The notes under the pieces are model-generated. The model worked only from the letters and a program-made list of their open reading frames with translations. It was not told the DNA's origin and ran no database searches. From positions 1-64,000 of the forward strand of contig CANFLS010000007.1 of the NCBI GenBank assembly GCA_947447955.1: 64,000 nt of DNA, given 5' to 3'. Numbering within the stretch: the first letter of the stretch is position 1; each line of letters begins with the position of its first letter. The position numbers and the translations under genes were made by a program. Source of the DNA: Flavobacteriales bacterium (lineage in GTDB: Bacteria > Bacteroidota > Bacteroidia > NS11-12g > UBA955). Shown here one piece after another: positions 3,570-61,605 of the stretch.

Positions 3570-4616
3570 TTAACGGTTTGTATACATATTTTGGTAGTAT
3601 GCTTGGTAATTGCCAGAGGTTACATTGTCTAACCATTCTTCATTTTGCAAATACCAATCAATTGTTTTTTCGAAACCTTGATCAAAAGCTACACTTGGGC
3701 TCCAACCCAATTCCGTTTCTAATTTACTTGCATCAATTGCATATCTAAAGTCATGACCAGCTCTGTCTGTTACATAGGTAATCAATTTCACAGATTCACC
3801 TTCTTCACGTCCCAATTTTCGGTCCATGATTTCGCATAATTTATTTACCAAATCAATGTTTTTCCACTCATTATTGCCGCCAATGTTATAAGTATCGCCA
3901 TTCTTTCCCTTATGGAAAATAACATCAATTGCAGATGCATGATCATTCACCCAAAGCCAATCTCTAATATTATCTCCCTTACCATAAACAGGTAAAGGTT
4001 TATTATTTTTGATATTGTGAATCATCAAAGGAATTAATTTTTCCGGGAATTGATGACTCCCATAATTGTTTGAGCAATTGCTAATCACGATTGGCAATTT
4101 GAATGTTTCGTGATAAGCACGCACAAAATGGTCGCTGCTTGCTTTACTAGCGCTATAAGGTGAATTAGGATCGTAAGGAGTTGACTCGGTAAATTTTCCT
4201 TCATCGCCCAACGTCCCATAAACCTCATCAGTGCTTACATGGTAAAATCTTCCCTCAGTAACATTTCCAAATGATTTAAATGCATTTAACAAAACCACTG
4301 TTCCAACCACATTTGTCATCACAAAATCAATTGGATTGGTGATACTTCTGTCTACATGACTTTCAGCCGCCAAATGAATTACAGAGTGAATTTCCCTCGA
4401 TGAAAACAATGTTTCTACCGCTTTGGTATCTGTAATATCACATTTTACGAATTCATAGTTTGAATGTCCCTCAACATCTCTCAAATTTTCAAGATTACCA
4501 GCGTAGGTTAAATTATCTACATTAATAATGTGATATTCAGGATATTGATTCACAAATCTTCTGATTACATGCGAGCCGATGAAACCGGCACCGCCGGTAA
4601 TGATTATATTTTTCAT
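3570..4616 (-). CDS. rfbB: dTDP-glucose 4,6-dehydratase
   Basis: Second enzyme of dTDP-L-rhamnose synthesis: dTDP-glucose to dTDP-4-keto-6-deoxyglucose, NAD-dependent. The 348-residue extended short-chain dehydrogenase has the Rossmann motif GGAGFIGS at residue 8, HLAAESHVDRS, the catalytic STDEVYG segment and the YSASKASSDH active-site Tyr-x3-Lys. Its ATG overlaps the stop of the FKBP gene (TGA/ATG). The first-step enzyme rfbA lies about 18 kb away at 22440-23309. rfbC and rfbD are not in the window, so the rhamnose pathway genes are scattered in this genome. Confidence 0.95.
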   Translation of the reverse strand: MKNIIITGGAGFIGSHVIRRFVNQYPEYHIINVDNLTYAGNLENLRDVEGHSNYEFVKCDITDTKAVETLFSSREIHSVIHLAAESHVDRSITNPIDFVMTNVVGTVVLLNAFKSFGNVTEGRFYHVSTDEVYGTLGDEGKFTESTPYDPNSPYSASKASSDHFVRAYHETFKLPIVISNCSNNYGSHQFPEKLIPLMIHNIKNNKPLPVYGKGDNIRDWLWVNDHASAIDVIFHKGKNGDTYNIGGNNEWKNIDLVNKLCEIMDRKLGREEGESVKLITYVTDRAGHDFRYAIDASKLETELGWSPSVAFDQGFEKTIDWYLQNEEWLDNVTSGNYQAYYQNMYTNR

Positions 4617-5539
4617 TGAATTACTTTTACATTACTTATTTTCACATACAATGGAGCATAACTAGGTACTCCAATTCTTCCGTAAGCTCCAAAACCATGA
4701 TCAGAACTAGTTACAAATTCGCCAATAGCGCCTTCATTTACAAAAAACGGTAAAAAATCTAATACTTTTACCCCATTTAAATTAGCCATTTGTTCAGCTT
4801 TATATCTTCGGCCTTCCAACCTACTATCGTAAATCAAACCTCCCTTCAAAGTTGAAACAACTACATCGAATTCAACAATGGTAGCATGAAACAAAACCGG
4901 TGGCATGCTCATTAAATTGGTTTGAGATACAAATTCTCCCGATTTTTCATCCTTCACCCTATACTTGATACTTTGAAATGAATCTAACAACCACTTACCT
5001 TCTTTTTCATTTTTAGCACAGTATTCATCTATAATCTTATTTTCTGCAATTGCCCTATTTAATTTTTTGGCATTAGAATAAGCCTCATATTCCTGTGCAT
5101 TTAAAACTTTATCTACACGAATAATAAACTTAGCCATTTCATTATTTGGCAATAATTTAATCTTATAATGATTCGAAATTTTTTGTTTCAAACTATCGGT
5201 TGAAATCAAAACTTCGATGGTACTTCCTGGCTTAGTTATTTGCAAAGCCTCCATCAATTCATTGCGTGCTTCAACAGGATATGGAATCTCCTTTAAAGTA
5301 TCATCATGAAAGCAGTTTTGTAATGTATCATTGTCAGGTCCAATAATCATAAATTCAACCAAACAGTAATTTTCAGGACCCAATTGCTCTTTAAGTGCTC
5401 CACCTTCAATAAACCGATATTTCATTCCGGTTTTAGAAGTTTTGTAACTATTTAGCTGATAAATTAATAATCCAACAGAAATAATAAGCAACGAAATTAC
5501 TGACCATTTCAAATACTTGTTTTTAGGAAGAAAATTCAT
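4613..5539 (-). CDS. Membrane-anchored FKBP-type peptidyl-prolyl isomerase-like protein
   Basis: This 308-residue protein has one N-terminal membrane segment (about residues 11-28), so the rest is probably periplasmic. Two FKBP-like regions can be traced. The first, about 50-150, is degenerate (EVLISTDSLKQ). The second, about 200-308, has LKGGLIYDSR, EGAIGEFVTSSDHGFGAYG and a final APLYVKISNVKV, which follow the FKBP core pattern of a GE-x-ipS loop, YG and a last strand. Prolyl isomerase or chaperone activity is inferred from the fold; aromatic active-site residues are not fully conserved, so it may be non-catalytic. It overlaps both neighbours (nrnA upstream, rfbB downstream) by a few bases and is clearly translated in the same operon. 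Confidence 0.75.
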   Translation of the reverse strand: MNFLPKNKYLKWSVISLLIISVGLLIYQLNSYKTSKTGMKYRFIEGGALKEQLGPENYCLVEFMIIGPDNDTLQNCFHDDTLKEIPYPVEARNELMEALQITKPGSTIEVLISTDSLKQKISNHYKIKLLPNNEMAKFIIRVDKVLNAQEYEAYSNAKKLNRAIAENKIIDEYCAKNEKEGKWLLDSFQSIKYRVKDEKSGEFVSQTNLMSMPPVLFHATIVEFDVVVSTLKGGLIYDSRLEGRRYKAEQMANLNGVKVLDFLPFFVNEGAIGEFVTSSDHGFGAYGRIGVPSYAPLYVKISNVKVIQ

Positions 5540-9224: not shown

Positions 9225-9803
9225 ATGGCAGTTTCACTTTGGTTACCGGAAAGCGTTGGCGCGATGCTTACTGTTTGGTGTGTATATCTTGCTGCTCAAA
9301 ATAAAATCATAAACTGGCCAATAAGTATCTTGGCGTCTAGCGTATATTTTTATGTTTTTTATCAGAATCACTTTTTTTCAGATGCCTATTTGCAAATTGT
9401 TTTTGTATTATTCCAACTTTACGGTTGGTGGTTTTGGTCAAATTTAAATCCCTCAAAACAACTACAAAATATTAGTAAAATTGATGGGAAAAGTATCATA
9501 CTCCTTATTGTAATTTCAGCAGTACTCTATGCAACTTGGCTCCATTTTTATAAAACAATAAATCCAACTGCAAGAATTCCAGAAATAGATGCATTAACAA
9601 CGGTAATTAGTTTAACGGCTTTATATATGCAGGCAAAAAGGTGGATCGAAAATTGGATAATTTGGGTAGTTGTAGACATCATTTACGTTCCAATGTACAT
9701 TTATGGGGAACAAAAAATAACTGCTTGTCTTTATAGCTTTCTGACAATAATGGCTATTTATGGTTTTAAAGAATGGCAGAAACAATTGCTTAGAGAACAA
9801 TGA
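9225..9803 (+). CDS. pnuC: Nicotinamide riboside transporter PnuC
   Basis: Facilitator for uptake of nicotinamide riboside, an NAD precursor. The 192-residue integral membrane protein has about seven hydrophobic helices. The family's substrate-site features are present: FQLYGWWFW near residue 65 and WIENWIIWVVVDIIYVPMYI near residue 140, plus WPISILASSVYFYVFYQ early on. Length is normal. It stands alone between sodA and the rplY end, has its own TAACTTTG promoter box and ends at a terminator hairpin. No NR kinase gene is adjacent and no riboswitch was recognised upstream. Confidence 0.9.
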   Translation: MAVSLWLPESVGAMLTVWCVYLAAQNKIINWPISILASSVYFYVFYQNHFFSDAYLQIVFVLFQLYGWWFWSNLNPSKQLQNISKIDGKSIILLIVISAVLYATWLHFYKTINPTARIPEIDALTTVISLTALYMQAKRWIENWIIWVVVDIIYVPMYIYGEQKITACLYSFLTIMAIYGFKEWQKQLLREQ

Positions 9804-15134: not shown

Positions 15135-15923
15135 TTACAAATCGATAAATGCTTGTCCGTGATGAAATTTCAATTGATCGCCATTATCATTTTCAAGCAT
15201 AATACGTCCCTCAAAATCTACATCAATCAATTTGAATTTTTCAAGTTTAAATCCTTCACCATCAGCTATTCTTAGGGTAATGATTTCATTTAATTTCCAT
15301 AAATATTTTTGAAAGTTGGCGTGAATTTCAAACTGTGTATTTAGCTTTTGCAAATGAACATGCACATTTTCTATGAGGGACATTAAAACGCTGTGAATAT
15401 TGGTTTCAATTTGATTGATTTGAAATAAGCTTGTAGCAGAAACTAAATTTTGAGGGAAATCAGTTTGATTGATATTTATTCCAACTCCAAAAAACGCGAC
15501 CTTTTGATTATTGATATTTTGAATTTCAAACAATATCCCTGATAGTTTTTCATCAAGGGCAAAAATATCATTTGGCCATTTAATTGATATCGGTAAATGA
15601 CTAAATTTTTGAATTGTATGTAACACTGAAAGTGTGAGCATTTTATTCAATTCTATCAGATTCCAGTGTTTTTGAATGGAAATAGCAAATGTAATGGCCA
15701 AATTTTTGCCATTTTCTGAGTGCCATTGATTATTTTTTTGACCGATACCATTTGTTTGATTTAAGCTATACACGGCAATAGGATTTACCAATAAAGACGG
15801 GGCATACGGGGAATTTGCTTTATTTTGAACAAGCAATTTACACAGCGATTGTGTGGATTTACATTGGTTAGAAAAATAAATTTCTACCTCAGAATACAAT
15901 TGTTCAAACTGAATGTCTTCCAA
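15135..15923 (-). CDS. birA: Biotin--[acetyl-CoA-carboxylase] ligase
   Basis: Attaches biotin to the carboxyl-carrier protein through biotinyl-AMP. Family motifs are visible: a diverged STN-like CKSTQSL, NQTNGIGQKNNQWHSE (the normally GRGRxGRxW biotinyl-AMP loop, here degenerate GIGQKNNQW), NLAITFAI, ISIKWPNDIF with the catalytic KWPND, KLSGILFE and GVGININQ. The N-terminal HTH repressor domain of E. coli BirA is absent. No ATG or GTG exists at the N-terminus. The TTG at 15921-15923 (LEDIQFEQL) leaves 31 bases to divergent rsfS and is my choice; a farther TTG at 15960-15962 would overlap rsfS. The substituted GRGR loop is unusual, but the rest looks functional. Confidence 0.82.
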   Translation of the reverse strand: MEDIQFEQLYSEVEIYFSNQCKSTQSLCKLLVQNKANSPYAPSLLVNPIAVYSLNQTNGIGQKNNQWHSENGKNLAITFAISIQKHWNLIELNKMLTLSVLHTIQKFSHLPISIKWPNDIFALDEKLSGILFEIQNINNQKVAFFGVGININQTDFPQNLVSATSLFQINQIETNIHSVLMSLIENVHVHLQKLNTQFEIHANFQKYLWKLNEIITLRIADGEGFKLEKFKLIDVDFEGRIMLENDNGDQLKFHHGQAFIDL

Positions 15924-16620: not shown

Positions 16621-17559
16621 TTGATTCGAAAATTTATCATAAAATCTCTTGTTGCAACTGTGTTATTGTATGCAATTTATTTGATCGTAATTTTCACATA
16701 CTCCAATATCTTTCCAAATTCAAAATCACTTGTTTTAATAAACAAAAACGACGTAGAACATTCAGAAATAATAATTTCTGGTGACTCTCGGGCTGAATTT
16801 CAAATTGATCCTGCATTACTCAATCAATACACACAGAAAAATTGTATTAACGTTGCTGAATCTGCTTTTGATTTATTTTCTTTAACGGAACGATTAAAAA
16901 TATCATCCCTCAAAAACAAAACCTTTGTTGTTTCAAGCTCTTTTTGGCAAATCAACGACGGTTCAATCGACAAAGGATACATACGTGAGGAAGCGTTGTC
17001 TAAATTATCCTTCAAAGAGAAAATTACCTTGTATCAAAATCGTTTAACAGACCTCATTGAAGCGCAAAACAGTTTATTCATGCATCGATTTTTAAATACC
17101 GATACCTTTGTTTTGGGTAATAAAGATAAAAAACTTAACCGTGGTTACGGAATTTACCCTTGCAAATCGGTAGACCTTTCTGAAAATCATTTCAAAAATC
17201 ACCCATGGTACCTAAAACCAAAAATTGATGGAGTAAAACTTACACTTTTAAAAAGAGCTTTGTTAAACATGAAAAACATGCCTTTAAATACCTTTGTACT
17301 ATACAATGGCGTAGTTTGTCCGGAGTTTAAAAATGCAACCCAGAAGAATGGAATTTGGAACCTAGAAAAACAGTATAATGCCAAAATTTCTGAAATAATA
17401 CAAACGGAAAAAATTACAAATGTGCACTTTTTTAACTTAATTGAAAATAATGAATTCGAAAGTTCTGATTTTACCGACATTCAGCATACTTGTATTCATG
17501 GAAATGTCAAATTCACAAAACTGATTGCACGGTTATTACAAAACATAGGAAAGAGCTAA
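16621..17559 (+). CDS. Membrane-anchored SGNH-hydrolase-like protein
   Basis: About 312 residues. The open frame extends back into the tRNA and its terminator, so the start must be downstream; the first plausible codon is TTG 16621-16623 (LIRKFIIKSLVATV), followed at once by a membrane segment (about residues 10-28). After it comes IIISGDSRAEFQ, an SGNH block I (GDS with the serine nucleophile). Near the C-terminus FTDIQHTCIHGNVKF provides a D-x2-H pair in the block V position. Blocks II and III are not clear. A periplasmic esterase or acyl-transfer role is possible but unproven. The neighbours (tRNAs, an esterase-like gene) do not clarify the role. Confidence 0.55.
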   Translation: MIRKFIIKSLVATVLLYAIYLIVIFTYSNIFPNSKSLVLINKNDVEHSEIIISGDSRAEFQIDPALLNQYTQKNCINVAESAFDLFSLTERLKISSLKNKTFVVSSSFWQINDGSIDKGYIREEALSKLSFKEKITLYQNRLTDLIEAQNSLFMHRFLNTDTFVLGNKDKKLNRGYGIYPCKSVDLSENHFKNHPWYLKPKIDGVKLTLLKRALLNMKNMPLNTFVLYNGVVCPEFKNATQKNGIWNLEKQYNAKISEIIQTEKITNVHFFNLIENNEFESSDFTDIQHTCIHGNVKFTKLIARLLQNIGKS

Positions 17560-17592: not shown

Positions 17593-18549
17593 TTACTTTA
17601 GTAAAGTGTTAAAAAAATCTAACGCCATCAATCCACTTTTATTCCAAAATTGATAATCGTGGTTGGCATTTTTTACACTTACGAAGCGAATCTTTTTTGA
17701 TTTACAATTATCTAACGTGTAATTCCCCATAAACACACCTTCATTTGAATATTTTGGATGTGATGTCAATAAAAAGTCAATATTGAGTAGTTTCTCCAAT
17801 AAATTTATGGATTGATTAAACGGAACAATTTGATCGTTGGTTCCATGGGCTAAAAAAATATTGGTTTTAAATTCTTTTGCTCTTAGAGAAATATTGTTCG
17901 TACCTGACCATCGGAATGCATTTTTTTCATATTTACCCAAACAGTTTAACATCAGGCCATCATTTTTGTCTAATAATGGATTATAATCACCGCTGAGTCC
18001 CGCAACTCCTTTAAAGCATTCAGCGTGCTCCAATCCCAAAATAACTGCACCACGGGCTCCGGTTGACAATCCCAAAGCAAATGAATTGGAATTCTTCGTA
18101 AACCATCCAAATTTATTGAGCGGAGACAATACCGAATCGAACAACCATGTTCGGGTTGGATAGTTTTTATAGTCTTTGCGCATATCGGGATAAAAGCTAT
18201 CCATGTAAACACTTTTACCCATTTCCACAAACAGCAAAGCAAATTGATTGTTGAGTGCTGTTTTTGCAACCGAAGTTTTTGTAATCCAATCTAAATCGAG
18301 GTAATTCCATCCTGGCAATAGCAACAACACCCCTTTTATTTGTTTTGAGGGACAAATTATTTTGATTTGAAAAGGATGACTGTTGAAATTTACGAAATAG
18401 GAAGTATCAGATAACGTGCAGGGCTTTTCAAATTGGAAATTCAAAGATTTTCTTGGGACAGAAGATTTTTGTCCCTCAAAAGACTTTACTGCAATGAAAG
18501 CACAGAGTAATAAGAGTAATAGTGATATGGATTTCTTATTCAAAGTCAT
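17593..18549 (-). CDS. Exported alpha/beta-hydrolase (esterase-like)
   Basis: 318 residues with an N-terminal signal or anchor (MTLNKKSISLLLLLLCAF). The alpha/beta-hydrolase triad can be read: nucleophile Ser in GLSTGARGA near residue 157, Asp in HGTNDQIVPF near residue 238, and His in NANHDYQFW near residue 300. LLLLPGWNY near residue 80 supplies the oxyanion-loop region. The layout resembles esterase D/feruloyl-esterase-type enzymes; the substrate is unknown. Start is ATG 18547-18549; it overlaps the era stop by 14 bases, so translation is probably coupled. Two copies of the dispersed motif TTGAGGGACA lie inside it in opposite orientations, at 18345 and 18470. Confidence 0.75.
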   Translation of the reverse strand: MTLNKKSISLLLLLLCAFIAVKSFEGQKSSVPRKSLNFQFEKPCTLSDTSYFVNFNSHPFQIKIICPSKQIKGVLLLLPGWNYLDLDWITKTSVAKTALNNQFALLFVEMGKSVYMDSFYPDMRKDYKNYPTRTWLFDSVLSPLNKFGWFTKNSNSFALGLSTGARGAVILGLEHAECFKGVAGLSGDYNPLLDKNDGLMLNCLGKYEKNAFRWSGTNNISLRAKEFKTNIFLAHGTNDQIVPFNQSINLLEKLLNIDFLLTSHPKYSNEGVFMGNYTLDNCKSKKIRFVSVKNANHDYQFWNKSGLMALDFFNTLLK

Positions 18550-19448: not shown

Positions 19449-21383
19449 TTATTCGGAAGAACGCAGGTTTGGATTTTTCTTATTTAAAAGAACTTCCTTC
19501 CAATTATCATCAATGCCCATTTTCTTGCGAATACTGGTTCTGGCGTTATTTACATATTGACTTGTTAATCCCAATAAACCTGCAATTTCTTTGGTAGGAT
19601 ATCCATTCACACTCAATACAAAAATCCTTTTTTCGGTAATGCTTAAAAGCGCAATTTCAGGGAAATCTAGCTGAATATCTGAATAATCTTCGAGCAACTT
19701 ATCTGCCAATTGAGGTTGGGCATCAGAAACAGCATTCTGTATATTCAAAAACTCCGACCTAACTTCTTTTATTCCTGTATGATAATTACTTTCATTTATT
19801 GATAAAAGCAATTTATTGATAGATTCAACCTTGGTAATGATCATTTTCGAAAGGGTAATAATTCGGTTATTTAAATCATTTTCTGTAGTAAGATTTTCGG
19901 CAAGCAATTTTTCATTTTCTAGTTCTTTCACCAACAATTGCTCCCTCAATACACTGTGTTTTCTTTCTCTATAAACCACATAAAGAATTAATATACTTAA
20001 CAAAATGAGCAAAATAGTAAAAACTTGGAAAATTCTGGTTTGCTTATTTTGACTCTCTAATTCTTTTTTACTCGATTCAATTTGGTCTATCAAGTTTCCC
20101 AATCTCATTTTCTCGGCCAAATCTGCATGGCGAGATTCTCTTTCTTGATCATAGAATTTATTTTTAAGATCCAAAGCAATTTTTGATATTAGTAACGCAT
20201 TTTTAAAATCACCTGCATTTTCATAGAGTCCCGCTTTAATAAAATAAAGTGGGTAATTATTAAAATCTTTTTGTAATTCTAGGTCACCGCCAGCTTGTTT
20301 TTCCAAATTTATAAAATCATTTATTGACAAAAACTGAGGATTTTCTTTGATATACTTAAGCAAATAATCAGCAATTTCAATGAATGAATAGGGAAATTCA
20401 TCAATGACTAATTTTCTATTATCAATTAATAATTTGCTAAAATTCTGATTTTGATTATTTGCTTGAGTTAACAGTATACGAAGAAAATTCATTTTAAGTT
20501 GTGCAACTGGAGCAACATTATTTATCTCATCAATACATATTTTACTCTCCTTCCATTTCTTTTCTCCTTGATATAACAATGCCCTATTGATAAATATCAA
20601 TTGGCCCTCATAAGTGCTTTTATCTAATTTTAATTTTTCAAAATGTTTAGACCAAAATATTTCAGCATCACTGTAATTTTTCTCAGTTATCATGATACTA
20701 AACATATTATTTAGCAAAATCAAATTATCAATATCCTGAGTGGGTAAAACCTTTAGAGCTTGCTCAAAATAAAGTTGCGCAGAACCTTGAAGCATTTTAC
20801 TGTTCATCACATAACCCAAATTCACTGCGAAGAAATAAACAAAATGTTTCTTCTTAGATTTCATGGCAATATCATAACCCAATCTACTATAATACAAACC
20901 AGTATCAATTTCACTATTCATTAAATAGCCTGTAGACAAATTCCCCAAACTGTTCAATAAGATATTGGTATCTTTTAAATCAACACCAATTTCAAGTGCT
21001 TGTTTTTGGCCTTTATAAAAACTATCCGAACTAATTTTATACATATTCAATCTACTCGAAAGAATTTTGTAAAAAGCCAACGCGAGTTTGTTGTTTTGCT
21101 TTGAGGCAACATGATAGTAATTGTTTAATAAACTTTTAAATTCCTTATTTGTATCCTTCTGCGAAAATTTAAACAACAAGGTATTTCCAACAGGATTTTC
21201 ATACTCACCAACAATTTCCGTTTTAAGGAACATTCTCGCGGAATCATAAGAATAATGTTTACTGGGATTGTTGTTGCGATTATTGTCGTTATTCAATAAA
21301 AAGACAAAAGAAATAACTACCAAAATAAAAGCCACAAAGAATAATTTGTTTTTAAAGATTTTAAGTAATTTTGATGGCTGCAT
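19449..21383 (-). CDS. Membrane TPR protein with LuxR-type DNA-binding domain
   Basis: 644 residues. There is an N-terminal membrane segment (about 12-30), a long helical region of TPR-like repeats (about 75-420), a second membrane helix near 452-472 (FQVFTILLILLSILILYVVY), a coiled-coil linker, and a C-terminal HTH. The HTH reads LSITEKRIFVLSVNGYPTKEIAGLLGLTSQYVNNARTSIRKKMG with the usual KEIA...S..YV...R..IRKK helices. The layout predicts an extracytoplasmic TPR sensor joined to a cytoplasmic DNA-binding domain, a one-component design frequent in Bacteroidetes. Start is ATG 21381-21383; TATATTTG ends 3 bases upstream. It is divergent from the GH16 gene, a possible target, but that is only proximity. 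Confidence 0.8.
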   Translation of the reverse strand: MQPSKLLKIFKNKLFFVAFILVVISFVFLLNNDNNRNNNPSKHYSYDSARMFLKTEIVGEYENPVGNTLLFKFSQKDTNKEFKSLLNNYYHVASKQNNKLALAFYKILSSRLNMYKISSDSFYKGQKQALEIGVDLKDTNILLNSLGNLSTGYLMNSEIDTGLYYSRLGYDIAMKSKKKHFVYFFAVNLGYVMNSKMLQGSAQLYFEQALKVLPTQDIDNLILLNNMFSIMITEKNYSDAEIFWSKHFEKLKLDKSTYEGQLIFINRALLYQGEKKWKESKICIDEINNVAPVAQLKMNFLRILLTQANNQNQNFSKLLIDNRKLVIDEFPYSFIEIADYLLKYIKENPQFLSINDFINLEKQAGGDLELQKDFNNYPLYFIKAGLYENAGDFKNALLISKIALDLKNKFYDQERESRHADLAEKMRLGNLIDQIESSKKELESQNKQTRIFQVFTILLILLSILILYVVYRERKHSVLREQLLVKELENEKLLAENLTTENDLNNRIITLSKMIITKVESINKLLLSINESNYHTGIKEVRSEFLNIQNAVSDAQPQLADKLLEDYSDIQLDFPEIALLSITEKRIFVLSVNGYPTKEIAGLLGLTSQYVNNARTSIRKKMGIDDNWKEVLLNKKNPNLRSSE

Positions 21384-23365: not shown

Positions 23366-24664
23366 TTAAACTATTTCAACAACGTAGTATTGCTTTTTGC
23401 CTTTTTGAGCCAAAATATATTTTCCATGCAACAAATATGACGTATCAATGGTTCCATTTACATCGGTAAATTTCTCTTTATTGATTGAAAATCCATTCGC
23501 CTGAATCATTTTTCTTGCCTCTCCTTTTGATGCAAATACTTGTGTGTTGGTTGCCAAGAAATCTAAAATACCAATTCCTTGAGTAAAATCACTCTGAGTA
23601 ATTGTGAATTTCTCCATCCCATCTAAAGAAGATGAAAGGGTTTCTTCATTGAGGGACAAAAGATCGTCTTTGCTACCATTTCCGAAGAAAATATCGGTGG
23701 CTTTGAGTGCCATTTCTAGATCTTCTTTGGCATGTACCCGAATGGTTAATTCTTCAGCCAAGGCTTTTTGCAACTCTCTTTTAAATTCATTGCCAACATG
23801 AGAATCAATTAAAGACTGTATTTCAGCTCTTGTTTTTAATGAATAAATTTTAATGAATTTAATAGCGTCCTCGTCGGCAACATTGAGCCAAAACTGATAA
23901 AACTTAAATGGACTTGTTTTTTTAGGATCTAACCAAACGTTTCCACCTTCACTTTTTCCAAATTTCGTGCCATCCGACTTGGTAACCAACGGCGCAGTTA
24001 TGGCAAAAGCTTCACCACCTTCCATTCGGCGTATCAATTCAGTACCAGTGGTAATATTTCCCCACTGATCACTTCCACCCATTTGAAGTTTGCAACCTTC
24101 ATTTTTGTATAAATGAACAAAATCATAGCCTTGAACCAATTGATAACTAAATTCGGTAAAAGACAAACCACCAGATTCCAATCTGTTTTTAACACTGTCT
24201 TTACCCATCATGTAACTTACAGTAATGTGTTTTCCAACATCACGAATGAAGTCTAGGAAATTCCAATCTTTAAACCAATCGTAATTATTTACAAGTTTTG
24301 CAGCATTTGAACCATTTTCAAAGTCCAAAAACTTCATTAATTGTTTCTTTTGACCTTCTAAGTTTGCATTTAAACTATCAAGATCGAGTAATTTACGCTC
24401 AGCGCTTTTTCCACTAGGATCGCCAACCATACCGGTAGCTCCGCCAACCAAAGCAACGGGCTTATGACCTGCTTTTTGAAAAAGCGTCAACATCATAATG
24501 GGAACCATGTTGCCAATATGAAGTGAATCGGCTGTTGGATCAAATCCAATATAAGCTGTAACTTGTTCTTTGGTTAAAAGTTCTTGGGTACCAGGAATGG
24601 CATCATGCAATAAACCTCTCCATTGAAGTTCTTCAATAAAATCAAAATTGGGTGTAAAGGACAT
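23366..24664 (-). CDS. tyrS: Tyrosyl-tRNA synthetase
   Basis: Charges tRNA-Tyr. The 432-residue class I synthetase has YIGFDPTADSLHIGNMVP with the HIGH box near residue 46, QLVQGYDFVHLYKNEGC, QMGGSDQWGNIT and the KMSKS-type loop KFGKSEGGNVWL near residue 234. A C-terminal S4-like RNA-binding domain (ASKGEARKMIQANGFSINKE) completes it. It follows the small membrane protein gene by 6 bases, so the two are probably co-transcribed. A copy of TTGAGGGACA lies inside at 23649. Confidence 0.96.
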   Translation of the reverse strand: MSFTPNFDFIEELQWRGLLHDAIPGTQELLTKEQVTAYIGFDPTADSLHIGNMVPIMMLTLFQKAGHKPVALVGGATGMVGDPSGKSAERKLLDLDSLNANLEGQKKQLMKFLDFENGSNAAKLVNNYDWFKDWNFLDFIRDVGKHITVSYMMGKDSVKNRLESGGLSFTEFSYQLVQGYDFVHLYKNEGCKLQMGGSDQWGNITTGTELIRRMEGGEAFAITAPLVTKSDGTKFGKSEGGNVWLDPKKTSPFKFYQFWLNVADEDAIKFIKIYSLKTRAEIQSLIDSHVGNEFKRELQKALAEELTIRVHAKEDLEMALKATDIFFGNGSKDDLLSLNEETLSSSLDGMEKFTITQSDFTQGIGILDFLATNTQVFASKGEARKMIQANGFSINKEKFTDVNGTIDTSYLLHGKYILAQKGKKQYYVVEIV

Positions 24665-41421: not shown

Positions 41422-42026
41422 TTGCTGTATCTAAAATGGCCTATGATAGTAAAATCAAATAAACAATCTTCTAATTGTTGTCCATTTCCAATGTTATGAA
41501 TAATTTGATAGGTATTCCCACTGGATGGCAGTTTGCTGCTTACAATTCCAATATGCGTAATTCCTTCACTTAATTTCCAACACACAATATCACCGGGAAC
41601 ATAATCTTTCGGATTATTTGTTATTTTGAGGGAGGTTCCATGCCTCTTAAAAAATGTCATTAAGTTAGGAACTCTCCGATGATCAATATTGGCATCTGGT
41701 TTTTTCATATTCCATAATCTGGGATATAGTGAAAAATTTGAAACCATATCTAGGTGCACTTCCTTTTGTAAATCAATTCCTAGCTTTCTATATGCCCTAA
41801 TTACAACATCTGAACAAACACCGGTTTTTGGAGGGACATCTCCATTGGGGTAAGGAATTACAACATATGCTGGCAAATAGGTTACATTTTGAAATGTTAA
41901 CGTAAAAGCGGAATCAGCCAAGCGGGTTTGAAAATTTGATTGGGCACTTACATTTATAAAACTACCAAAAACAGCAATGCAAATCAGCAGTTTATTGATT
42001 AAGAAACTCTTCAAAAATTTTAACAT
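41418..42026 (-). CDS. DUF1287 protein, predicted amidase/peptidase of the NlpC/P60-like fold
   Basis: 202 residues with a signal peptide (LINKLLICIAVFGSFINVSAQ). The DUF1287 pattern is visible: YPNGDVPPKTGVCSDVVIRAYRKLGIDL near residue 60 (probable catalytic Cys in GVCSD), KPDANIDHRRVPNLMTFFKR near residue 105, and YVPGDIVCWKL followed by HIGIVS (probable catalytic His). The layout suggests a periplasmic cysteine hydrolase acting on cell wall or peptide. Substrate is unproven. An inverted repeat lies 8 bases before the start. Confidence 0.8.
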   Translation of the reverse strand: MLKFLKSFLINKLLICIAVFGSFINVSAQSNFQTRLADSAFTLTFQNVTYLPAYVVIPYPNGDVPPKTGVCSDVVIRAYRKLGIDLQKEVHLDMVSNFSLYPRLWNMKKPDANIDHRRVPNLMTFFKRHGTSLKITNNPKDYVPGDIVCWKLSEGITHIGIVSSKLPSSGNTYQIIHNIGNGQQLEDCLFDFTIIGHFRYSK

Positions 42027-47578: not shown

Positions 47579-49147
47579 TCAATGCTTAATTAACTTCATT
47601 GTTTCGTTTGAAGTATTTTTTAAACGCAAAAAATAAATACCACTCGGTAAATTTTCGAAATTCTGTTTTTCAATATCTTGTCCCTCAAAAACAATTTGAC
47701 CCAAATTATTCTGCAAAAAAACTTCCATATTTTGAGCTGATTCTTTCAAATAGATTCTGTTGGTAAACGGATTGGGATAAGCAATATTATTTGACGTATG
47801 ATGCAAATTTGGTTTACTTACATTGTCATCACAGAACCTTGAAACGCCAACTAATTTGGTCATTTCGTTACACAAATAAGCGTAGTTGGTTCCGTCTTCA
47901 AAATTCAAAGTACCGGTTAACAAATTGGTTTTCTCATTGGGATCGGTTGAAATTTTGAAGAACTTTTGGGTACCATTGTCAAAATCAAGCAATTTATGGG
48001 TGGCATTTCTCATGGTTTTACCATCGCCAGCCGTTGGCGTTACTTTAAAGATTTCTGTAAAAATCCAATCGCGCATTTTCACATTTTGGTTTTTCAATAT
48101 TGGCATCATGCTTCTTGAATCAACCGGTTTATTTTGAGGGACATTTTTTGACCATGCGGTATCACCAAACAAATCCAAAACTGTGGCATATATATCGGCA
48201 GTATTCACAAGTTCAGTTGAAACTCTGTTTGGATTCACTACAGAAGGTCCAGCAATAATCATGGGTACTGAAATTCCATCTTGGTAAATGCTTCCTTTGG
48301 CGCTATTAGTACCTTGATTTACCAAAGGATCATCGCCATTATCGCCAATAAAAATAATATCGGTATTATCCCACAATTTCATTGATTGCAACGAATCGAA
48401 AAGCCTACCTACCTGATTATCCAAAGCCTCTGTCATTGCCTTGAAATAGGCTTTGGGATTGGCTGTAATATCAGCTGCGGTTCCAGATAAAGTTTTATCT
48501 GAATACAATCCAGTAGGAGGCAAATGATAAGGAGAATGGGGTGCATTGTATGCTAGCCACAGAAAGAACTGCTGGTTTTTTTGCGTTTTTATCCAGTTAA
48601 TTGCATCTGATGTTTCATCAATTGTTGCATACACATTTGAAGTGCCAGAAACACCGTTTACAATTTTTGTCCAACTGTAATAATTAGCTAGTTGTCCAAG
48701 AAAATTTCCAGCATAATAATCATATCCCATAATATTAGGATAAGTGAATTTTGCCGGTTTTGGAGCTGTCAAATGCCATTTTCCAACACTTGCTGTCGCA
48801 ATTTTATTTGATGAATACTTTTTTAGCAATCGGGGAATGGTAATTTCGGCAGTATCAATTTCAGCCGAACCTGCTGCAACCACATCGCCCATGCCAGTTC
48901 TAAAACTATAACGACCTGTTAAAATACCAGCTCTTGTTGGAGAACATAATGGGTTTGACCAAGCGTATCTAAATCGGACACCTCTATTTAGCAACTTCCT
49001 TACATTGGGCATTGAAACCGTATCTACATGATTTTCATAAAAGCCACAATAATCACTTCCAAGATCATCGGCAATAATTAAAATTACATTTCGTTGGGCA
49101 TTCAGTTTTATAAAACTAAAGAAGAGAATAAGAATATATTTTTTCAT
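47579..49147 (-). CDS. Secreted sulfatase with T9SS sorting domain
   Basis: 522 residues with a signal peptide (MKKYILILFFSFIKLNAQ). The type I sulfatase motifs are clear: NVILIIADDLGSD (metal ligands Asp-Asp) near residue 21, the formylglycine site CSPTRAGILTGRYSFRTGMG near residue 68 (C-x-P-x-R), GKWHLTAPKP near residue 120 and IFIGDNGDDP near residue 266. The last ~70 residues, from IAYPNPFTNR, are a T9SS sorting domain, so the enzyme is predicted to reach the cell surface. The Cys-type site needs a formylglycine-generating enzyme or anSME, not in the window. Substrate is unknown. Two copies of the dispersed motif lie in it, at 47679 and 48134. Confidence 0.92.
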   Translation of the reverse strand: MKKYILILFFSFIKLNAQRNVILIIADDLGSDYCGFYENHVDTVSMPNVRKLLNRGVRFRYAWSNPLCSPTRAGILTGRYSFRTGMGDVVAAGSAEIDTAEITIPRLLKKYSSNKIATASVGKWHLTAPKPAKFTYPNIMGYDYYAGNFLGQLANYYSWTKIVNGVSGTSNVYATIDETSDAINWIKTQKNQQFFLWLAYNAPHSPYHLPPTGLYSDKTLSGTAADITANPKAYFKAMTEALDNQVGRLFDSLQSMKLWDNTDIIFIGDNGDDPLVNQGTNSAKGSIYQDGISVPMIIAGPSVVNPNRVSTELVNTADIYATVLDLFGDTAWSKNVPQNKPVDSRSMMPILKNQNVKMRDWIFTEIFKVTPTAGDGKTMRNATHKLLDFDNGTQKFFKISTDPNEKTNLLTGTLNFEDGTNYAYLCNEMTKLVGVSRFCDDNVSKPNLHHTSNNIAYPNPFTNRIYLKESAQNMEVFLQNNLGQIVFEGQDIEKQNFENLPSGIYFLRLKNTSNETMKLIKH

Positions 49148-49209: not shown

Positions 49210-50808
49210 TCAATGAAGCGCATCAGGTATTTTCAATCTACTTCCATATTTCAATTTTTTACGCATGTTTAATTTGTTCTTTTTTGCAATTGCTGCAACA
49301 GAAACATGGTAGTTAAGTGCTATTCTATAAAGGGTTTCGCCGTGTTTTACAACATGGATAACCTCTCCTTCCCGATGTCGCGGTACAATAACAATTGGAG
49401 TATGAACTGAATCTACTTTTGCAACAGTATCTGATGTATTATTTTCTTCTTGAGGGACATTTGATCGATACATCGATAACATATCCATTCCCTGTGAAAC
49501 TTTAAAATTTAATGAATCTAAATTTACCTGATCAAAGTTATTCACTCTGTTATATGCATGGAGTAAGGATAGTGTAAAAAGTTGTCCTTGTAATGCATAT
49601 CCAACCTTATTGAAATGTAATTTGTCTGAAAGGGTCAATTTGTTTTGATACCAGGTATAGAGCGAACCCCATCCCCCCATTGCTTCATTGAGATCATACA
49701 GGGTAAGATTTTTATCCATTGCTATTCTACGCAATTGGTTATTCACTTTTACTTGAAGTGGTGGAATTCTATTGTTGCTTCGGGTATCTGGTGCAGTGGT
49801 AAAAATAATTGCTGTATTGGGACTAACCTTTATAATTTCATCAATGAAATTCATAATGGCAGGTGTATAAACAGCTGTATCTAGTTTTCCATTATAAGCC
49901 TCATTTGTGCCGAATGAAAAAATCAAAATATCTGGTTTTATCTGTCCAATTTGAGCAATGGTATGGGGTGCTTTGTTAATTAAATGGGTAAACTGAGCGC
50001 CTACGACTCCCAGATGGTGATAAACAACGCCTTTTTGATGGACAGGCAAAATTTCAAACCCATAAAAAACAAAATGATTTTGAATTCCGACAGTTCTAGA
50101 AAGATTAAGCGTAAAACCTTGCTCTACAGAGGATGATTCGTAAGTACTAAAACCCCAACCATCTTGGTGCGAAAAGGAGTCTATCAATCTCCATTCTGAA
50201 TCTAGTTGTGGCTTAAACGATTGGTTATCGATAGAATGCCAAACTTTAATTTTTTGAAATTCCGGAGTAGAAAATACACCCAATGAGTTTTCTTCTCTAA
50301 ACTTCTCAGTGAGTGAAACTTGAATTTTAGAATAAGGACTGTGAGTTGTTGCACAGTAACCAGATATTCCAATTGGCTCTGAAAGTGAACCCGACATGGT
50401 TTTTAAGCCGGTCCAAATTCCCGTTTGTTTTACTGATACCCCTTTGGGGCCAAAGCTTTTTGCCAACGCATAAGGAAACAAAATACCCCTACCTGCATTT
50501 CCAAATACGGATTGCAATTGAATTCTTATTTCTCCAGAGAAATAATCTCCTTGCACATGGCTATCGCCAATATGCATAATTGAGAATAATGTATCTCCTG
50601 GGCTTTTGAGATTCTTTAGGTTCTGAAATTGATTGTTCTGATAAACATTATGTAACTTCTTTAATGCCTTTTTTAATTTGATTGATTCCTGAATTTCATT
50701 GCGCTGCAAATTAATTATGGAATTATTATTTGAAAGTTGTGCTTCAATTGGGATTGTTATCAATAGCAAAGCCATTGAAAAAACCAATCCCTTCATATTT
50801 AACTTCAT
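49210..50808 (-). CDS. SGNH-family hydrolase/esterase with C-terminal LysM domain
   Basis: 532 residues with a signal peptide (MKGLVFSMALLLITIPIEAQ). The SGNH domain has block I MHIGDSHVQGDYFSGEIR near residue 77, block III FSFGTNEAYNG near residue 297 and block V SDKLHFNKVGY (D-x-x-H) near residue 396. LysM follows at the end: HVVKHGETLYRIALNYHVSVAAIAKKN near residue 484. LysM binds peptidoglycan or chitin-like GlcNAc polymers, so the enzyme probably works on the cell wall or is anchored to it. Its ATG overlaps the stop of the MBOAT gene (TGATG). Together with the upstream MBOAT and SGNH genes it forms an acyl-transfer module. Confidence 0.85.
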   Translation of the reverse strand: MKLNMKGLVFSMALLLITIPIEAQLSNNNSIINLQRNEIQESIKLKKALKKLHNVYQNNQFQNLKNLKSPGDTLFSIMHIGDSHVQGDYFSGEIRIQLQSVFGNAGRGILFPYALAKSFGPKGVSVKQTGIWTGLKTMSGSLSEPIGISGYCATTHSPYSKIQVSLTEKFREENSLGVFSTPEFQKIKVWHSIDNQSFKPQLDSEWRLIDSFSHQDGWGFSTYESSSVEQGFTLNLSRTVGIQNHFVFYGFEILPVHQKGVVYHHLGVVGAQFTHLINKAPHTIAQIGQIKPDILIFSFGTNEAYNGKLDTAVYTPAIMNFIDEIIKVSPNTAIIFTTAPDTRSNNRIPPLQVKVNNQLRRIAMDKNLTLYDLNEAMGGWGSLYTWYQNKLTLSDKLHFNKVGYALQGQLFTLSLLHAYNRVNNFDQVNLDSLNFKVSQGMDMLSMYRSNVPQEENNTSDTVAKVDSVHTPIVIVPRHREGEVIHVVKHGETLYRIALNYHVSVAAIAKKNKLNMRKKLKYGSRLKIPDALH

Positions 50809-55644: not shown

Positions 55645-56496
55645 TTATAATACAATTCTCTCAGGAGCAGCATAGATATTAAATCGATTATCCCTCAAAA
55701 AACCAATCAGTGTAATATCTAATTCTTCGGCCAAATCAACCGCCAAACTTGAAGGGGCTCCGACCGCACAAATCATTCTAAATCCAGCCATGCTGGCCTT
55801 TTGTACCAATTCAAAACTAACCCTTCCACTTAAAAATAAGATATTATTAAATAGTGGTATTTCATTTTTTTGAACCGCACTTCCAATTAATTTATCTAAC
55901 GCATTATGCCTTCCAACATCCTCTTTGATATCAAGAAGTTCACCAGCCAAATTAAACATGGCAGAGGCATGAATTCCCCCAGAAAAATTGAAATTTTCTT
56001 GAGAATTTCTCAAACTATCATTGAATGTTAAGAGCACATTTTTTTCTATTTTCCATTTATCTGCAGGAAGAATAATTGGACAAGCAATCTTGACTGCGTC
56101 AATTGAAGCTTTGCCACAAACACCACAACTTGAAGTTGTATAAAAATTTCGTTCTAATTTCGATAAATCAAATTGAACATTTTCATTTAAATGAACTTTT
56201 ATTTGATTTGATGCCAATCCATTGAATGCCTCAACTGAAACAGATTCTTCAATATTTTTTATTTGATTAACTGATTGAATAATTCCCTCTGTAAATAAAA
56301 AACCCACAGTCAATTCAATGTCGTTTCCGGGTGTTCTCATTGTTACAGCAATATTTTTTTCTACCCAAGAATCGGTAAAAAAGTGAACCAAAATAATTTC
56401 TAACGGTTCTTCAACCGACAGCATGTCGTTCACATGTTTTACATCTGAATCACTTATTTTTATTATTTCTGAGGGAGTTAATGCAAACTTTGTCAT
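55645..56496 (-). CDS. fdhD: Formate dehydrogenase accessory sulfurtransferase FdhD
   Basis: Transfers sulfur from IscS to the molybdenum cofactor, required for formate dehydrogenase activity. The 283-residue protein has the conserved pair CGVCG (C-x-x-C) near residue 125, MRTPGNDIELTVGFLFTEGII, the FSGGIHASAMF segment and EDVGRHNALDKLIG near residue 189. All are typical. It overlaps mobA by 4 bases and precedes fdhA by 93 bases. Confidence 0.95.
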   Translation of the reverse strand: MTKFALTPSEIIKISDSDVKHVNDMLSVEEPLEIILVHFFTDSWVEKNIAVTMRTPGNDIELTVGFLFTEGIIQSVNQIKNIEESVSVEAFNGLASNQIKVHLNENVQFDLSKLERNFYTTSSCGVCGKASIDAVKIACPIILPADKWKIEKNVLLTFNDSLRNSQENFNFSGGIHASAMFNLAGELLDIKEDVGRHNALDKLIGSAVQKNEIPLFNNILFLSGRVSFELVQKASMAGFRMICAVGAPSSLAVDLAEELDITLIGFLRDNRFNIYAAPERIVL

Positions 56497-57666: not shown

Positions 57667-58488
57667 TTACAAGAGTAAATTATCTATGAGTCTAATGTTG
57701 CCTAAAAAACCAGCATAAACGATAGCCTGATTGCCATTTTTATCAGAAGATACTACCATATTTGGCAAATTCACATAATTCAAATATTCTGTCTTTAATC
57801 CGAATCCATTTAATCGTTCAATTTCATGTTCACATGCCAATTGAGAATAAACTTCCTTGTTTTTAAGTGCAAGTAACGATTGATAAATTTGATTTGCAAT
57901 TTGGAGTTCATTCTTTGATAAGCGCAAATTTCTACTGCTCATTGCAAGTCCTGATTGTTCGCGTTTTGTTTCAACAATATTGAATTTAATATGCTTGAAA
58001 TATTCATCAATCAAAATTTTCACAACCATACACTGCTGTAAGTCTTTTTGGCCAAAATAAACCTCATCTGGCTCAATTAAACTAAAAAAACGATGTAGCA
58101 CTTGAATCACGCCATTGAAATGCCCAGGCCTAAATTGTCCCTCAAAAACCGACTCAACAGAATTATTGGAAAGTTGGATATTAAATTCTTGATTTGGGGG
58201 ATAAATGGTTTCATAACTAGGTAAAAAAACGGCATCAACACCTGCCTGTTTTAAAAGTTCCAAGTCGTTCTGAATCATTCTTGGATATTTTTTCAAATCC
58301 TCTGGGTTATTAAACTGCAGTGGATTAACAAAAATACTTACAATTACATTTTCGCAAGATTTTTTAGCTTCTCTAACCAATGATATGTGACCATCGTGCA
58401 ATGCTCCCATGGTAGGTACAAATGCCAATGATTTGGACAACAATTGTCTGTAATTTGTAAGTGAATGATTTGAAAATAAAATATTCAT
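57667..58488 (-). CDS. panC: Pantothenate synthetase
   Basis: ATP-dependent condensation of pantoate and beta-alanine. The 273-residue protein has FVPTMGALHDGHISLVREAK (HxGH-type) near residue 22, VSIFVNPLQFNNPEDLKKYPR, GQFRPGHFNGVIQVLHRFF, the YFGQKDLQQCMVVK segment and MSSRNLRLS (KMSKS-like). Start is ATG 58486-58488; an in-frame TTG six codons upstream is rejected. One copy of the dispersed motif is at 58136. panB and panD are not adjacent. Confidence 0.95.
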   Translation of the reverse strand: MNILFSNHSLTNYRQLLSKSLAFVPTMGALHDGHISLVREAKKSCENVIVSIFVNPLQFNNPEDLKKYPRMIQNDLELLKQAGVDAVFLPSYETIYPPNQEFNIQLSNNSVESVFEGQFRPGHFNGVIQVLHRFFSLIEPDEVYFGQKDLQQCMVVKILIDEYFKHIKFNIVETKREQSGLAMSSRNLRLSKNELQIANQIYQSLLALKNKEVYSQLACEHEIERLNGFGLKTEYLNYVNLPNMVVSSDKNGNQAIVYAGFLGNIRLIDNLLL

Positions 58489-59401: not shown

Positions 59402-59412
59402 TTCAACATTAA

Positions 59413-60723
59413 GTGAATCGTTATCTTCTGATTTCGACAATTATTCTTCTTTTTTCATGTACAAAAAAAGAAGGTAATATTGTTCTTGAGGGACAAAATA
59501 ATCAAAATCCATTTAATCTTATTTCCTGCGATACTTTATCGTTCACGGCAAGAACCGTAGATGAAGATTCATTGCCAGGAAACGGATTGCGATATTCATT
59601 GTTGGGAAATATCAATGACGAAATTTTAGGAAAAAGTACGGCAAGTTTGTACGCCAATATTTCATTAATTGAGCCAAATACAAATTTCCCAAACACGGAA
59701 ACTGCAGATTCAGCCGTTTTGTTTATACCATCCGTTGATGGTTTGAATTTTTATGGAAATCTTACAACACCTCAAACACTGGTTATTGATAAACTCAATG
59801 ATACAATTTTAAGCACGAGCACATATTATCAAACGGATAAGTTTACAATTGATAAAAACTACACAACAAGCTACAGTGGTAAATTAATAAATTACTACTC
59901 CGATAGCATGAAGTATAGAAAAACAAAACTTGCTCCATACAATGGTTTGAGAATTAAGTTAAGTAAACAAATGGCCGATCATTTGATGTCGATGCCAAAA
60001 GAAGCATACCAAACGAATATTCTTTTATCAAAGTACTTTAAAGGTTTAGCAATTTCCCCAGAAGATAAAAATTTCGCTCCTGGCGATGGAGGTTTTGCGG
60101 TTTATGATGTAAATAATATCATTTCTTTAAGCTACAGAGCAAAAATTTTACTTTACTACCAAGATACAAATACATTCACTTTTGGATTTAGTGGTAGCTC
60201 TAGTTCGGTAACAAATGGAAAAACCGGACCTTACAATCAAAATATTTCTGATCAAATTTCTAAAAAAGCAAACAACTATCAATATACTTACTGTCAGGCA
60301 CTAAGTGGAGTTAAAACCAAAATAGAAATGCCTAATTTATTGAATTTGATAAAAAATGGGAATGTTGCTGTAAACTATGCAGAGATTGAATTGTTTATTA
60401 CAAATTACAGTGAAGATTTTTTTGCACCACCGAGAATGAATTTATTTCAACCATCTAATTCTAACAGTATCAGAAACTACTTTATACAAGATGCATTATC
60501 TACAGCGTCTTATGGAGGAGTTTATGATCCAATTCGCAAATCATATAAGTTTATAATCAGCCGTTACATTCAAAATATCTTTAACAAAAAGATTTTTGAA
60601 AATATCAACATTAGCAATGGTTTGTATTTGGCGATCCCTTCAGATCAACCTGTTATTGGGGCGCGATGTGTCATTGATCACAGCAAAACAAAAATTAAAA
60701 TTCTTTACACCAAGCCAAATTAA
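59413..60723 (+). CDS. DUF4270 lipoprotein
   Basis: 436 residues starting at GTG 59413-59415. The signal (VNRYLLISTIILLFSC) has a lipobox ending in Cys-16, so this is a lipoprotein. The DUF4270 pattern follows: short strands rich in Asn, Thr and Tyr, DTLSFTARTVDEDSLP near residue 39, GLNFYGN and the final LYLAIPSDQPVIGARCVIDHS. The family occurs on Bacteroidetes cell envelopes with unknown function. It lies 11 bases from the GlgA-like gene and so is in the same operon; the DAHP synthase gene follows 18 bases later. A dispersed-motif copy at 59486 encodes LEGQ. Confidence 0.82.
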   Translation: MNRYLLISTIILLFSCTKKEGNIVLEGQNNQNPFNLISCDTLSFTARTVDEDSLPGNGLRYSLLGNINDEILGKSTASLYANISLIEPNTNFPNTETADSAVLFIPSVDGLNFYGNLTTPQTLVIDKLNDTILSTSTYYQTDKFTIDKNYTTSYSGKLINYYSDSMKYRKTKLAPYNGLRIKLSKQMADHLMSMPKEAYQTNILLSKYFKGLAISPEDKNFAPGDGGFAVYDVNNIISLSYRAKILLYYQDTNTFTFGFSGSSSSVTNGKTGPYNQNISDQISKKANNYQYTYCQALSGVKTKIEMPNLLNLIKNGNVAVNYAEIELFITNYSEDFFAPPRMNLFQPSNSNSIRNYFIQDALSTASYGGVYDPIRKSYKFIISRYIQNIFNKKIFENINISNGLYLAIPSDQPVIGARCVIDHSKTKIKILYTKPN

Positions 60724-60741
60724 AATTTGACATTCAAAGAA

Positions 60742-61605
60742 ATGGCAGACAGAAAACCTTATCAGTTAGTGAGTAGAGAGTGGCAATCAAACGATACTAC
60801 TTTCAAAGTTAGAGGAACAGAAATTGGCAAGGAATTGCTCATGATTGCTGGACCTTGTGCGGTTGAGAACAAGGAACAAATTTTTACCATTTCTGAGTTT
60901 TTGTCTAAACAAAACATTAAGTTTTTAAGAGGTGGCGCATACAAACCTCGCACGAGCCCTTATTCTTTTCAAGGTTTAAAAACAGAAGGTTTGGTATTAT
61001 TGAGGGACGCAGCCGACAAATATAATATGGGTGTAGTTTCTGAAATAATGAGCATAGATAAAATTGATGAATTCAATGAATATGTTGATATATTTCAAGT
61101 TGGAACTAGAAATATGCAAAACTATCCATTATTAAGAGCTTTAGGGAAAGTAGATAAACCTATACTTTTAAAAAGAGGAATGAGCAGCACCATCGAAGAA
61201 TGGCTTTTGGCAGCAGAGTATATTGTATCAAGTGGAAATGAAAAAGTAATTCTTTGTGAAAGAGGAATTAGAACATTTGAAACAGCCACAAGAAATACCA
61301 TTGATATTTCTGCAATTCCAATGGTAAAAATGCTCAGTCATTTGCCAATTATTTTAGATCCGAGTCAAGGAACTGGCCATAGAGAAATAGTATCACCAAT
61401 TTCAGCAGCAGCAATCGCAGCTGGTGCAGATGGATTGATTATAGAAGTACATAATCAACCTGAAGAAGCTTTAAGCGATGGTGAACAAAGTTTATTCTTA
61501 GATCAGTTTGAAAACTTACTTCCAATCTTAAGTAGTCAGGCAAATTTAAGAAATAAGCGTTTCGATTATGAAACAAATACATTGAAGCCAAGCTTCAATA
61601 ACTAA
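60742..61605 (+). CDS. aroF: 3-deoxy-7-phosphoheptulonate synthase (type I-beta DAHP synthase)
   Basis: First step of the shikimate pathway: PEP + erythrose 4-phosphate to DAHP. The 287-residue (beta/alpha)8 protein has the N-terminal MIAGPCAVENKEQI near residue 36, FLRGGAYKPRTSPYSFQGL, YVDIFQVGTRNMQNYPLL, KPILLKRGMSSTIEEW, LCERGIRTFETATRNTID, LDPSQGTGHREIV and GLIIEVHNQPEEALSDGEQS. No chorismate mutase or ACT domain is fused, so feedback control is not evident. The start is ATG 60742-60744; an upstream TTG is rejected. The symbol is generic for DAHP synthase; isozyme assignment cannot be made. Confidence 0.9.
   Translation: MADRKPYQLVSREWQSNDTTFKVRGTEIGKELLMIAGPCAVENKEQIFTISEFLSKQNIKFLRGGAYKPRTSPYSFQGLKTEGLVLLRDAADKYNMGVVSEIMSIDKIDEFNEYVDIFQVGTRNMQNYPLLRALGKVDKPILLKRGMSSTIEEWLLAAEYIVSSGNEKVILCERGIRTFETATRNTIDISAIPMVKMLSHLPIILDPSQGTGHREIVSPISAAAIAAGADGLIIEVHNQPEEALSDGEQSLFLDQFENLLPILSSQANLRNKRFDYETNTLKPSFNN

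Follow-up and report, generated by a model that had tools for sequence, protein, structure and literature searches.

The 64,000-nucleotide stretch examined here (the window) opens contig CANFLS010000007.1 of the Flavobacteriales assembly GCA_947447955.1 and carries many copies of a dispersed 10-base word, TTGAGGGACA, and of its 8-base core, TTGAGGGA. The source genome, G000, comprises 2,808,179 bases (2.81 Mb) in 70 contigs and is 94% complete; about 17% of it was read base by base, and whole-genome counts come from pattern searches. TTGAGGGACA occurs exactly ten times in the window, against a mean of 0.12 and a largest count of 1 in 100 shuffles, and all ten copies lie at the coordinates that an earlier note on this DNA had given them. 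The core is present 20 times, ten on each strand, against a shuffle mean of 2.16 and a largest count of 5. This matches the number and the balance of orientations claimed in that note, two of whose positions were ten bases off: the cores placed at 28303 and 41636 start at 28293 and 41626. Its observation that TTGAGGG is almost never followed by C, G or T also stands, with A as the next base in 20 of the 21 cases in the window. A near copy proposed at 41829 is absent from the 50 window matches to a matrix built by expectation-maximisation, whose scores are listed below as natural logarithms of the likelihood ratio (ln LR).

4465..4474, minus strand: exact copy of TTGAGGGACA, ln LR 11.1
9449..9456, minus strand: TTGAGGGA core, ln LR 11.0
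15207..15214, minus strand: TTGAGGGA core (TTGAGGGACG), ln LR 15.4
15450..15457, plus strand: TTGAGGGA core (TTGAGGGAAA), outside the 50 matrix matches
16906..16913, minus strand: TTGAGGGA core, ln LR 10.2
18345..18354, plus strand: exact copy of TTGAGGGACA, ln LR 10.6
18470..18479, minus strand: exact copy of TTGAGGGACA, ln LR 12.7
19942..19949, minus strand: TTGAGGGA core, outside the 50 matrix matches
23649..23658, plus strand: exact copy of TTGAGGGACA, ln LR 10.6
28293..28300, plus strand: TTGAGGGA core, ln LR 11.2
31795..31802, plus strand: TTGAGGGA core, between called open reading frames, ln LR 7.6
40024..40033, minus strand: exact copy of TTGAGGGACA, between called open reading frames, ln LR 12.7
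41626..41633, plus strand: TTGAGGGA core, ln LR 11.9
47679..47688, minus strand: exact copy of TTGAGGGACA, ln LR 12.5
48134..48143, plus strand: exact copy of TTGAGGGACA, ln LR 11.6
49450..49459, plus strand: exact copy of TTGAGGGACA, the best full-length match in the window, ln LR 16.4
55691..55698, minus strand: TTGAGGGA core, ln LR 12.4
58136..58145, minus strand: exact copy of TTGAGGGACA, ln LR 14.7
59486..59495, plus strand: exact copy of TTGAGGGACA, ln LR 11.3
61000..61007, plus strand: TTGAGGGA core (TTGAGGGACG), outside the 50 matrix matches

The pair at 18345 (plus) and 18470 (minus) has a counterpart in the related genome G007, with the same 125-base spacing and the same orientations.

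The excess extends over the whole genome, in which TTGAGGGACA is found 192 times (96 on each strand) and the reversed word twice (once on each), so the over-representation first noticed in the window is real. Finer statistics come from a 464-kb sample of G000, made up of the window, 200 kb of contig 1 and 200 kb of contig 2, from which 12,959 bases of close repeats were masked. In the masked sample, TTGAGGGA is the most over-represented 8-mer, with 134 copies against 13.8 expected from a third-order Markov model. Without masking, an unrelated repeat word, GATTAGAC, ranks first, and TTGAGGGA reaches 141 against 31.8 under a fourth-order model; a fifth-order model gives 78 against 14.4 for TTTTGAGGGA. 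The excess therefore survives all three orders. The sample also holds 97 copies of TTTGAGGGA. A simple rule (minimum 90 amino acids, longest first) yielded 394 open reading frames (ORFs), which contain 125 copies of TTGAGGGA, compared with a mean of 15.7 and a maximum of 23 in 60 codon-shuffled sets. All five frame and strand settings that are possible without a stop codon share the excess, and the core density is similar in genes (0.308 per kb) and between them (0.273 per kb). Codon usage, as the earlier note had argued from the window, is not the whole cause. The repeats themselves form clusters of GATTAGAC/GGTTAGAC-type units, for instance at L044 (G000:C1:60001-80000) and L047 (G000:C1:120001-140000), with palindromes such as CCCGAAAGCTTTCGGG between the units. 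AGCTTTCGGG and TTAGACAGATTAGAC have 21 and 39 matches on the two strands of the 464 kb, and the window contains neither AGCTTTCGGG nor GATTAGAC.

The conserved unit is considerably longer than the word. It is an asymmetric element of about 28 bp, made up of a T-tract, TTTGAGGGA, YRT and then CG one helical turn further on. Its flanks were analysed, with a correction for codon phase, at 199 coding and 34 other sites of G000 and G007 that were picked by TTGAGGGA alone. Counting the last A of TTTGAGGGA as 0, favoured bases lie mainly between -15 and +13, with weak preferences that still exceed the threshold at -21 and +18. The upstream flank favours T from -15 to -8. Downstream, position +1 prefers C or T (not G) and +2 prefers A or G (not C); the single bases favoured further on are T (+3, +4), G (+6), C (+9) and G (+10). 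Control words, which provided small sets of 11, 17 and 50 coding sites, showed no favoured positions or scattered ones. The signal at +9 and +10 was first seen with flank-selected matrix matches, and their three-base periodicity marks part of it as codon phase; it survives both selection by the core alone and the codon-phase correction.

Along the chromosome, the element is scattered rather than regularly placed. The 615 matrix matches in 864 kb of the two genomes have mean gaps of 1.24-1.47 kb, of which about one in five would be background, as judged from 65 matches in a simulated 464 kb against 345 observed. The coefficient of variation of the gaps, 0.93-1.03, is that of random placement (0.98-0.99). 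In bins of 10 kb, contig 1 of G000 shows over-dispersed counts (variance/mean 1.54); the other three stretches give 0.69-0.84. Genic sites favour the coding strand, 309 to 187. The replication strand was inferred from GC skew for the 551 of the 615 sites that lie in stretches with clear skew, and 318 of these fall on the leading and 233 on the lagging strand. This raw excess arises mostly because the sites favour the coding strand: once gene strand is taken into account, the leading-strand log-odds are 0.13 +/- 0.10 (about 53%). Close inverted pairs were also considered as terminators and rejected, since the 20 pairs within 60 bp occur in all orientations, some are two registers of one site, and short gaps are no commoner than at random.

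Comparison with G007 shows that the copies are retained. G007 was sampled over 400 kb, of which 271 kb align with G000 at 85% identity in 39 alignments of at least 500 bases. It keeps 63 of 91 cores identical, compared with 927 of 2,920 (32%) in a control of 419 permuted words, some of them overlapping the motif (p 6e-13). The same holds at silent positions: among codons whose third base lies in the core and whose residue is unchanged, 195 of 227 are identical, where the rate of those codons in other places would give 136.4. The motif is maintained by selection. The exact core is 11.1-fold enriched where G007 aligns (72 in 200 kb) and 2.5-fold where it does not (4 in 54.7 kb; p 1e-4). This contrast comes from one genome pair, and the unaligned DNA, taken as stretches of 800 bases or more that lack a G007 alignment (window and contig 1), may be acquired or merely diverged.

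The distribution among relatives was followed in a genus of 14 genomes and in a wider set of 38, namely G000 and 37 relatives. TTGAGGGACA is abundant in six of the 14 and at background in the rest of the 38. Congeners spell the core differently, as TTTC[GT]GGGGA or TTGGGGGA, in matching flanks. In G002 and G011, which represent dialect B (300 kb each, masked), TCGGGGGA and TCTGGGGA are among the top words, as TTTCGGGGGA and TTTCTGGGGA. G012 has a third dialect, with seven copies of TTGGGGGA against 0.5 expected in a single 10-kb sample, and the degenerate-word count also supports it. That degenerate word, TTYKRGGGAYRT, is abundant in nine of the 14 congeners. A 69-genome survey of the family found it abundant in eight of 13 genomes of the genus and in none of the 56 others, the highest count outside the genus being 22, against 9 for the control, in G047. 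At the level of the order, TTTGAGGGACA is abundant in four of 88 genomes (a set that excludes G003, G004, G009 and G011), all in the genus. In three further genera of this family and one from the next (100 kb each), no such word leads the ranking. Among the 80 named Bacteroidota loci of 7-21 kb listed by a RecA comparison (69-80% identical, too distant for any of them to belong to the genus), none has more than two copies of TTGAGGGA. Among the genomes surveyed, the word is confined to one genus. Inside that genus, none of the listed variants is clearly in excess in G001 (337 kb) or G008 (235 kb), and the motif is weak or undecided in G003, G005 and G010. The matrix, which gives about 0.6-0.7 sites per kb, finds 0.64-0.78 in four further genomes of dialect A (6-18 kb each), 0.22-0.26 in two motif-negative congeners and 0.13-0.14 in two other genera. 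Polarity in dialect B gave nothing firm, with few sites examinable.

Two further observations concern these genomes. In G047, of genus g18, nine of the 22 TTYKRGGGAYRT matches read TTTGAGGGACGT, which could point to a family of repeats or to a weak signal of a related kind. A 7-bp tandem repeat with GGTAC, in L021 and L025 (G002:C1:20001-40000 and 100001-120000), dominated the first matrix made for G002, which was rebuilt after masking.

Dialects A and B share one architecture. With sites chosen by the core alone and codon phase corrected, the flanks of dialects A and B correlate at r = 0.69 in register, the next best of 41 registers reaching 0.43. The downstream flank alone gives 0.63, against at most 0.21 in the six nearest registers. 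A 20-row tree of ComEC places dialect A (six rows) and dialect B (two rows) each on one side of a 100/100 branch; the motif-poor G001, G008 and G010 lie near B, with G001 on a long branch. The dialects follow phylogeny, the core differing between lineages while the flanks stay alike. The ComEC of G000 is only 48% identical to those of G004 and G006, which use the same spelling, and the word is therefore old. In a RecA tree built with 26 of the 80 listed Bacteroidota loci, G000 stands beside a metagenome-assembled genome labelled Chitinophaga pinensis, at 97/91.

Taken together, these features lead us to favour, by a modest degree of confidence, the interpretation that the copies are DNA uptake sequences. 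The earlier note had suggested that the word resembles such sequences more than Chi or KOPS sites. The lack of polarity after gene strand, the random spacing, the long, duplex-like element with its T-tract and the phylogenetic dialects speak for this part of its claim, and the lack of a pilus ATPase over the cut-off speaks against it. In the proposed mechanism, a surface or periplasmic protein of a naturally transformable cell would bind the element as duplex DNA. Tagged DNA, that is, DNA of close relatives, would then enter through the outer membrane and be handed on to ComEC, DprA and RecA. With tagged DNA preferentially taken up and recombined, the word would build up in shared genes and be preserved there against mutation. 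A shift in receptor preference would create a new dialect, and the loss of competence would allow the word to decay. A fuller version, whose chances seem to us evenly balanced, is that a pilus-less genus of Bacteroidota independently evolved sequence-specific uptake with at least three dialects and a new kind of receptor, and that decay of competence genes accompanies loss of the word. A literature search, which left out subscription journals and preprints, returned no description of the word or of uptake sequences in Bacteroidota.

The competence genes are partly in line with this proposal. ComEC is present in 12 of the 14 congeners and DprA in 11, and G000 has both. Both genes, uninterrupted in the matched part, occur in seven of nine motif-rich and one of five motif-poor congeners. 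Among the motif-poor genomes, DprA was not found in G001, ComEC was not found in G005 and G003, and the DprA match of G008 has an in-frame stop; absences in G003 and G008 mean little, these being 77% and 82% complete. DprA was likewise not found in the motif-rich G004 and G009 (74% and 58% complete). The association has p 0.010 if two incomplete genomes are dropped, 0.063 if they are kept and 0.083 among genomes at least 87% complete.

Several results weigh against uptake. The link between motif and competence genes is post hoc and drawn from a small set of 14 genomes, and is weak, at most suggestive; G010 has ComEC and DprA yet little motif. The density is below that of the classical cases, with 192 exact 10-mers in 2.8 Mb compared with about 1,900 copies of the DNA uptake sequence (DUS) in Neisseria meningitidis (PMC3630211). 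There is no gene-end bias, the first and last fifths of genes being rather poorer in sites. The depletion in unshared DNA is weaker for matrix matches (169 in 199.9 kb aligned, 0.85 per kb, and 27 in 54.7 kb unaligned, 0.49) and is reversed in the window alone (41 in 55.6 kb aligned, 0.74 per kb, and 8 in 7.4 kb unaligned, 1.08). Because it is less uniform than the exact-core count suggested, the uptake reading is held slightly lower. The PF00437 ATPase of type IV pili and type II secretion has no match over the cut-off in any of the 14 genomes, seven of which have weak matches below it; minor pilins were not searched. A low-sensitivity search with part of the outer-membrane barrel of G015 as query found nothing in 13 of the 14 congeners and one partial match in G013.

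The missing ATPase also shapes what kind of receptor is expected. Because no PF00437 match passed the cut-off, the word is not filed with the known pilus-based uptake systems, and the receptor should differ from ComP of Neisseria, a ComP-like type not being expected. A pilus-free outer-membrane system like that of Riemerella would be a guess. Searches for a Riemerella-type surface pair with one domain family and with part of the G015 barrel, which were of low sensitivity, gave only weak matches in the genus. By ORF reading, a barrel gene adjoins a DUF5689 lipoprotein gene in L233 (G015, a family member without the word) and L246 (Flavobacterium flabelliforme), which is the layout reported for Riemerella competence. 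G000 itself encodes a 1,068-amino-acid surface-type frame (G000:C5:104804-108406, L234) that matches DUF5689 weakly and ends in a sorting-like C-terminus, and similar matches occur in G003, G007, G009, G013, G019 and G022.

Other functions can be set against the same evidence. Binding sites of a chromosomal protein, such as a nucleoid organiser, an SMC loader or a segregation or replication factor whose preference changed within the genus, offer a possible but unlikely account. A long asymmetric element of about 2.5 helical turns, with conserved synonymous sites and a genome-wide spread, would suit such a protein, and a slow emergence of new sites would account for the depletion in unshared DNA. 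KOPS, however, is a polar segregation motif, and the element shows no replication polarity once gene strand is allowed for; parS and matS are confined to certain regions, whereas the spacing here is random apart from the over-dispersion in one of four stretches. Chromosomal DNA-binding proteins of these kinds are usually conserved. The account is strained because the word is confined to one genus, being abundant in 0 of 56 family members outside it, and is absent in some congeners, two of which lack any excess variant. Chi-like sites regulating an AddAB-type helicase-nuclease are a rather improbable explanation. Like Chi, the over-represented word has a G-rich core and a raw leading-strand lean, and it occurs in a genome with an AddB-like nuclease: judged from PF12705 alone, a PDDEXK_1 protein with a frame of about 930-1,110 amino acids, AddB-like on our own reading, is present in all 14 congeners. 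The Chi of E. coli is strongly polar, and Chi sites are short words recognised in single-stranded DNA; the element has no clear leading-strand excess after gene strand and long conserved flanks on both sides of the core. The enzyme is also more widespread than the word, with PDDEXK_1 in 37 of 38 genomes and the word in one genus, some of whose gene-bearing members lack it, although other genera could have another Chi. G000 has a second PDDEXK_1 protein (G000:C47:3639-4352, a 928-amino-acid frame) besides the AddB-like one of 1,073 amino acids.

Two remaining explanations fare worse. It is very improbable that the copies serve a restriction-modification system, or another kind of defence, as sites of recognition or protection, even though the word is asymmetric, roughly bipartite and spelled differently between lineages. 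Restriction sites are usually avoided in genomes and are not known for a T-tract or graded flanks, whereas this word is in roughly ten-fold excess and has both. A by-product of mutation, codon or context bias, or a dispersed repeat, is the least credible explanation and one we consider extremely improbable. The commonest frame, TTT GAG GGA, does consist of ordinary codons, and the coding strand is favoured. The codon-shuffling result, the enrichment in all five possible frames and in intergenic DNA, the conservation of synonymous positions and the background level of the reversed word argue against a bias, and the copies, which have little sequence in common beyond about 28 bp, are unlike a mobile repeat.

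If the uptake-sequence reading is true, uptake specificity evolves repeatedly and arose independently in Bacteroidota, without pili, and natural transformation is predicted in these bacteria. The congeners that have other spellings or no word would then offer a comparative route to the receptor. If the element is instead the site of a chromosome organiser, that protein would also be new.

The known uptake systems provide a useful frame for comparison. Neisseriaceae and Pasteurellaceae are proteobacteria with type IV pili. For both families, self-recognising uptake sequences are documented (PMC2346458, PMC3630211, PMC7811141). Uptake sequences are not biased in orientation overall, and within reading frames one orientation is favoured (PMC2346458). 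Riemerella anatipestifer is, like the present genus, a member of the Bacteroidota with ComEC and DprA. It is transformable through ComEC, DprA and RecA, with uptake machinery called unique and comprising a surface protein and an outer-membrane barrel (PMC8459023); it differs in that this surface pair is not clearly detected in the genus, and the term 'uptake sequence' has no occurrence in the accessible parts of PMC8459023 and PMC8383284. The uptake signal sequence (USS) of the Pasteurellaceae differs in sequence and phylum. Here, the T-tract lies upstream of the core, there is no gene-end bias, and no pilus ATPase in the genus passes the cut-off; the 9-bp USS core of Haemophilus influenzae has 1,465 copies (PMC7811141), compared with 97 copies of TTTGAGGGA in 464 kb of G000. 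The two are alike in combining a short core with AT-tracts, in their many hundreds of copies on both strands, in apparently random spacing and in having a variant in a sub-lineage (PMC7811141, PMC2346458). In the Neisseriaceae, the receptor is the type IV minor pilin ComP, which binds DNA (PMC12061091). Exact DUS words number about 940-5,900 per genome, and every genome of Neisseria has a dialect (PMC3630211), whereas G000 has 192 exact words and G001 and G008 show no dialect in their sampled parts. The likeness lies in the dialects themselves: those of the Neisseriaceae track phylogeny and come in several spellings around an invariant core (PMC3630211), CTG there and GGA here.

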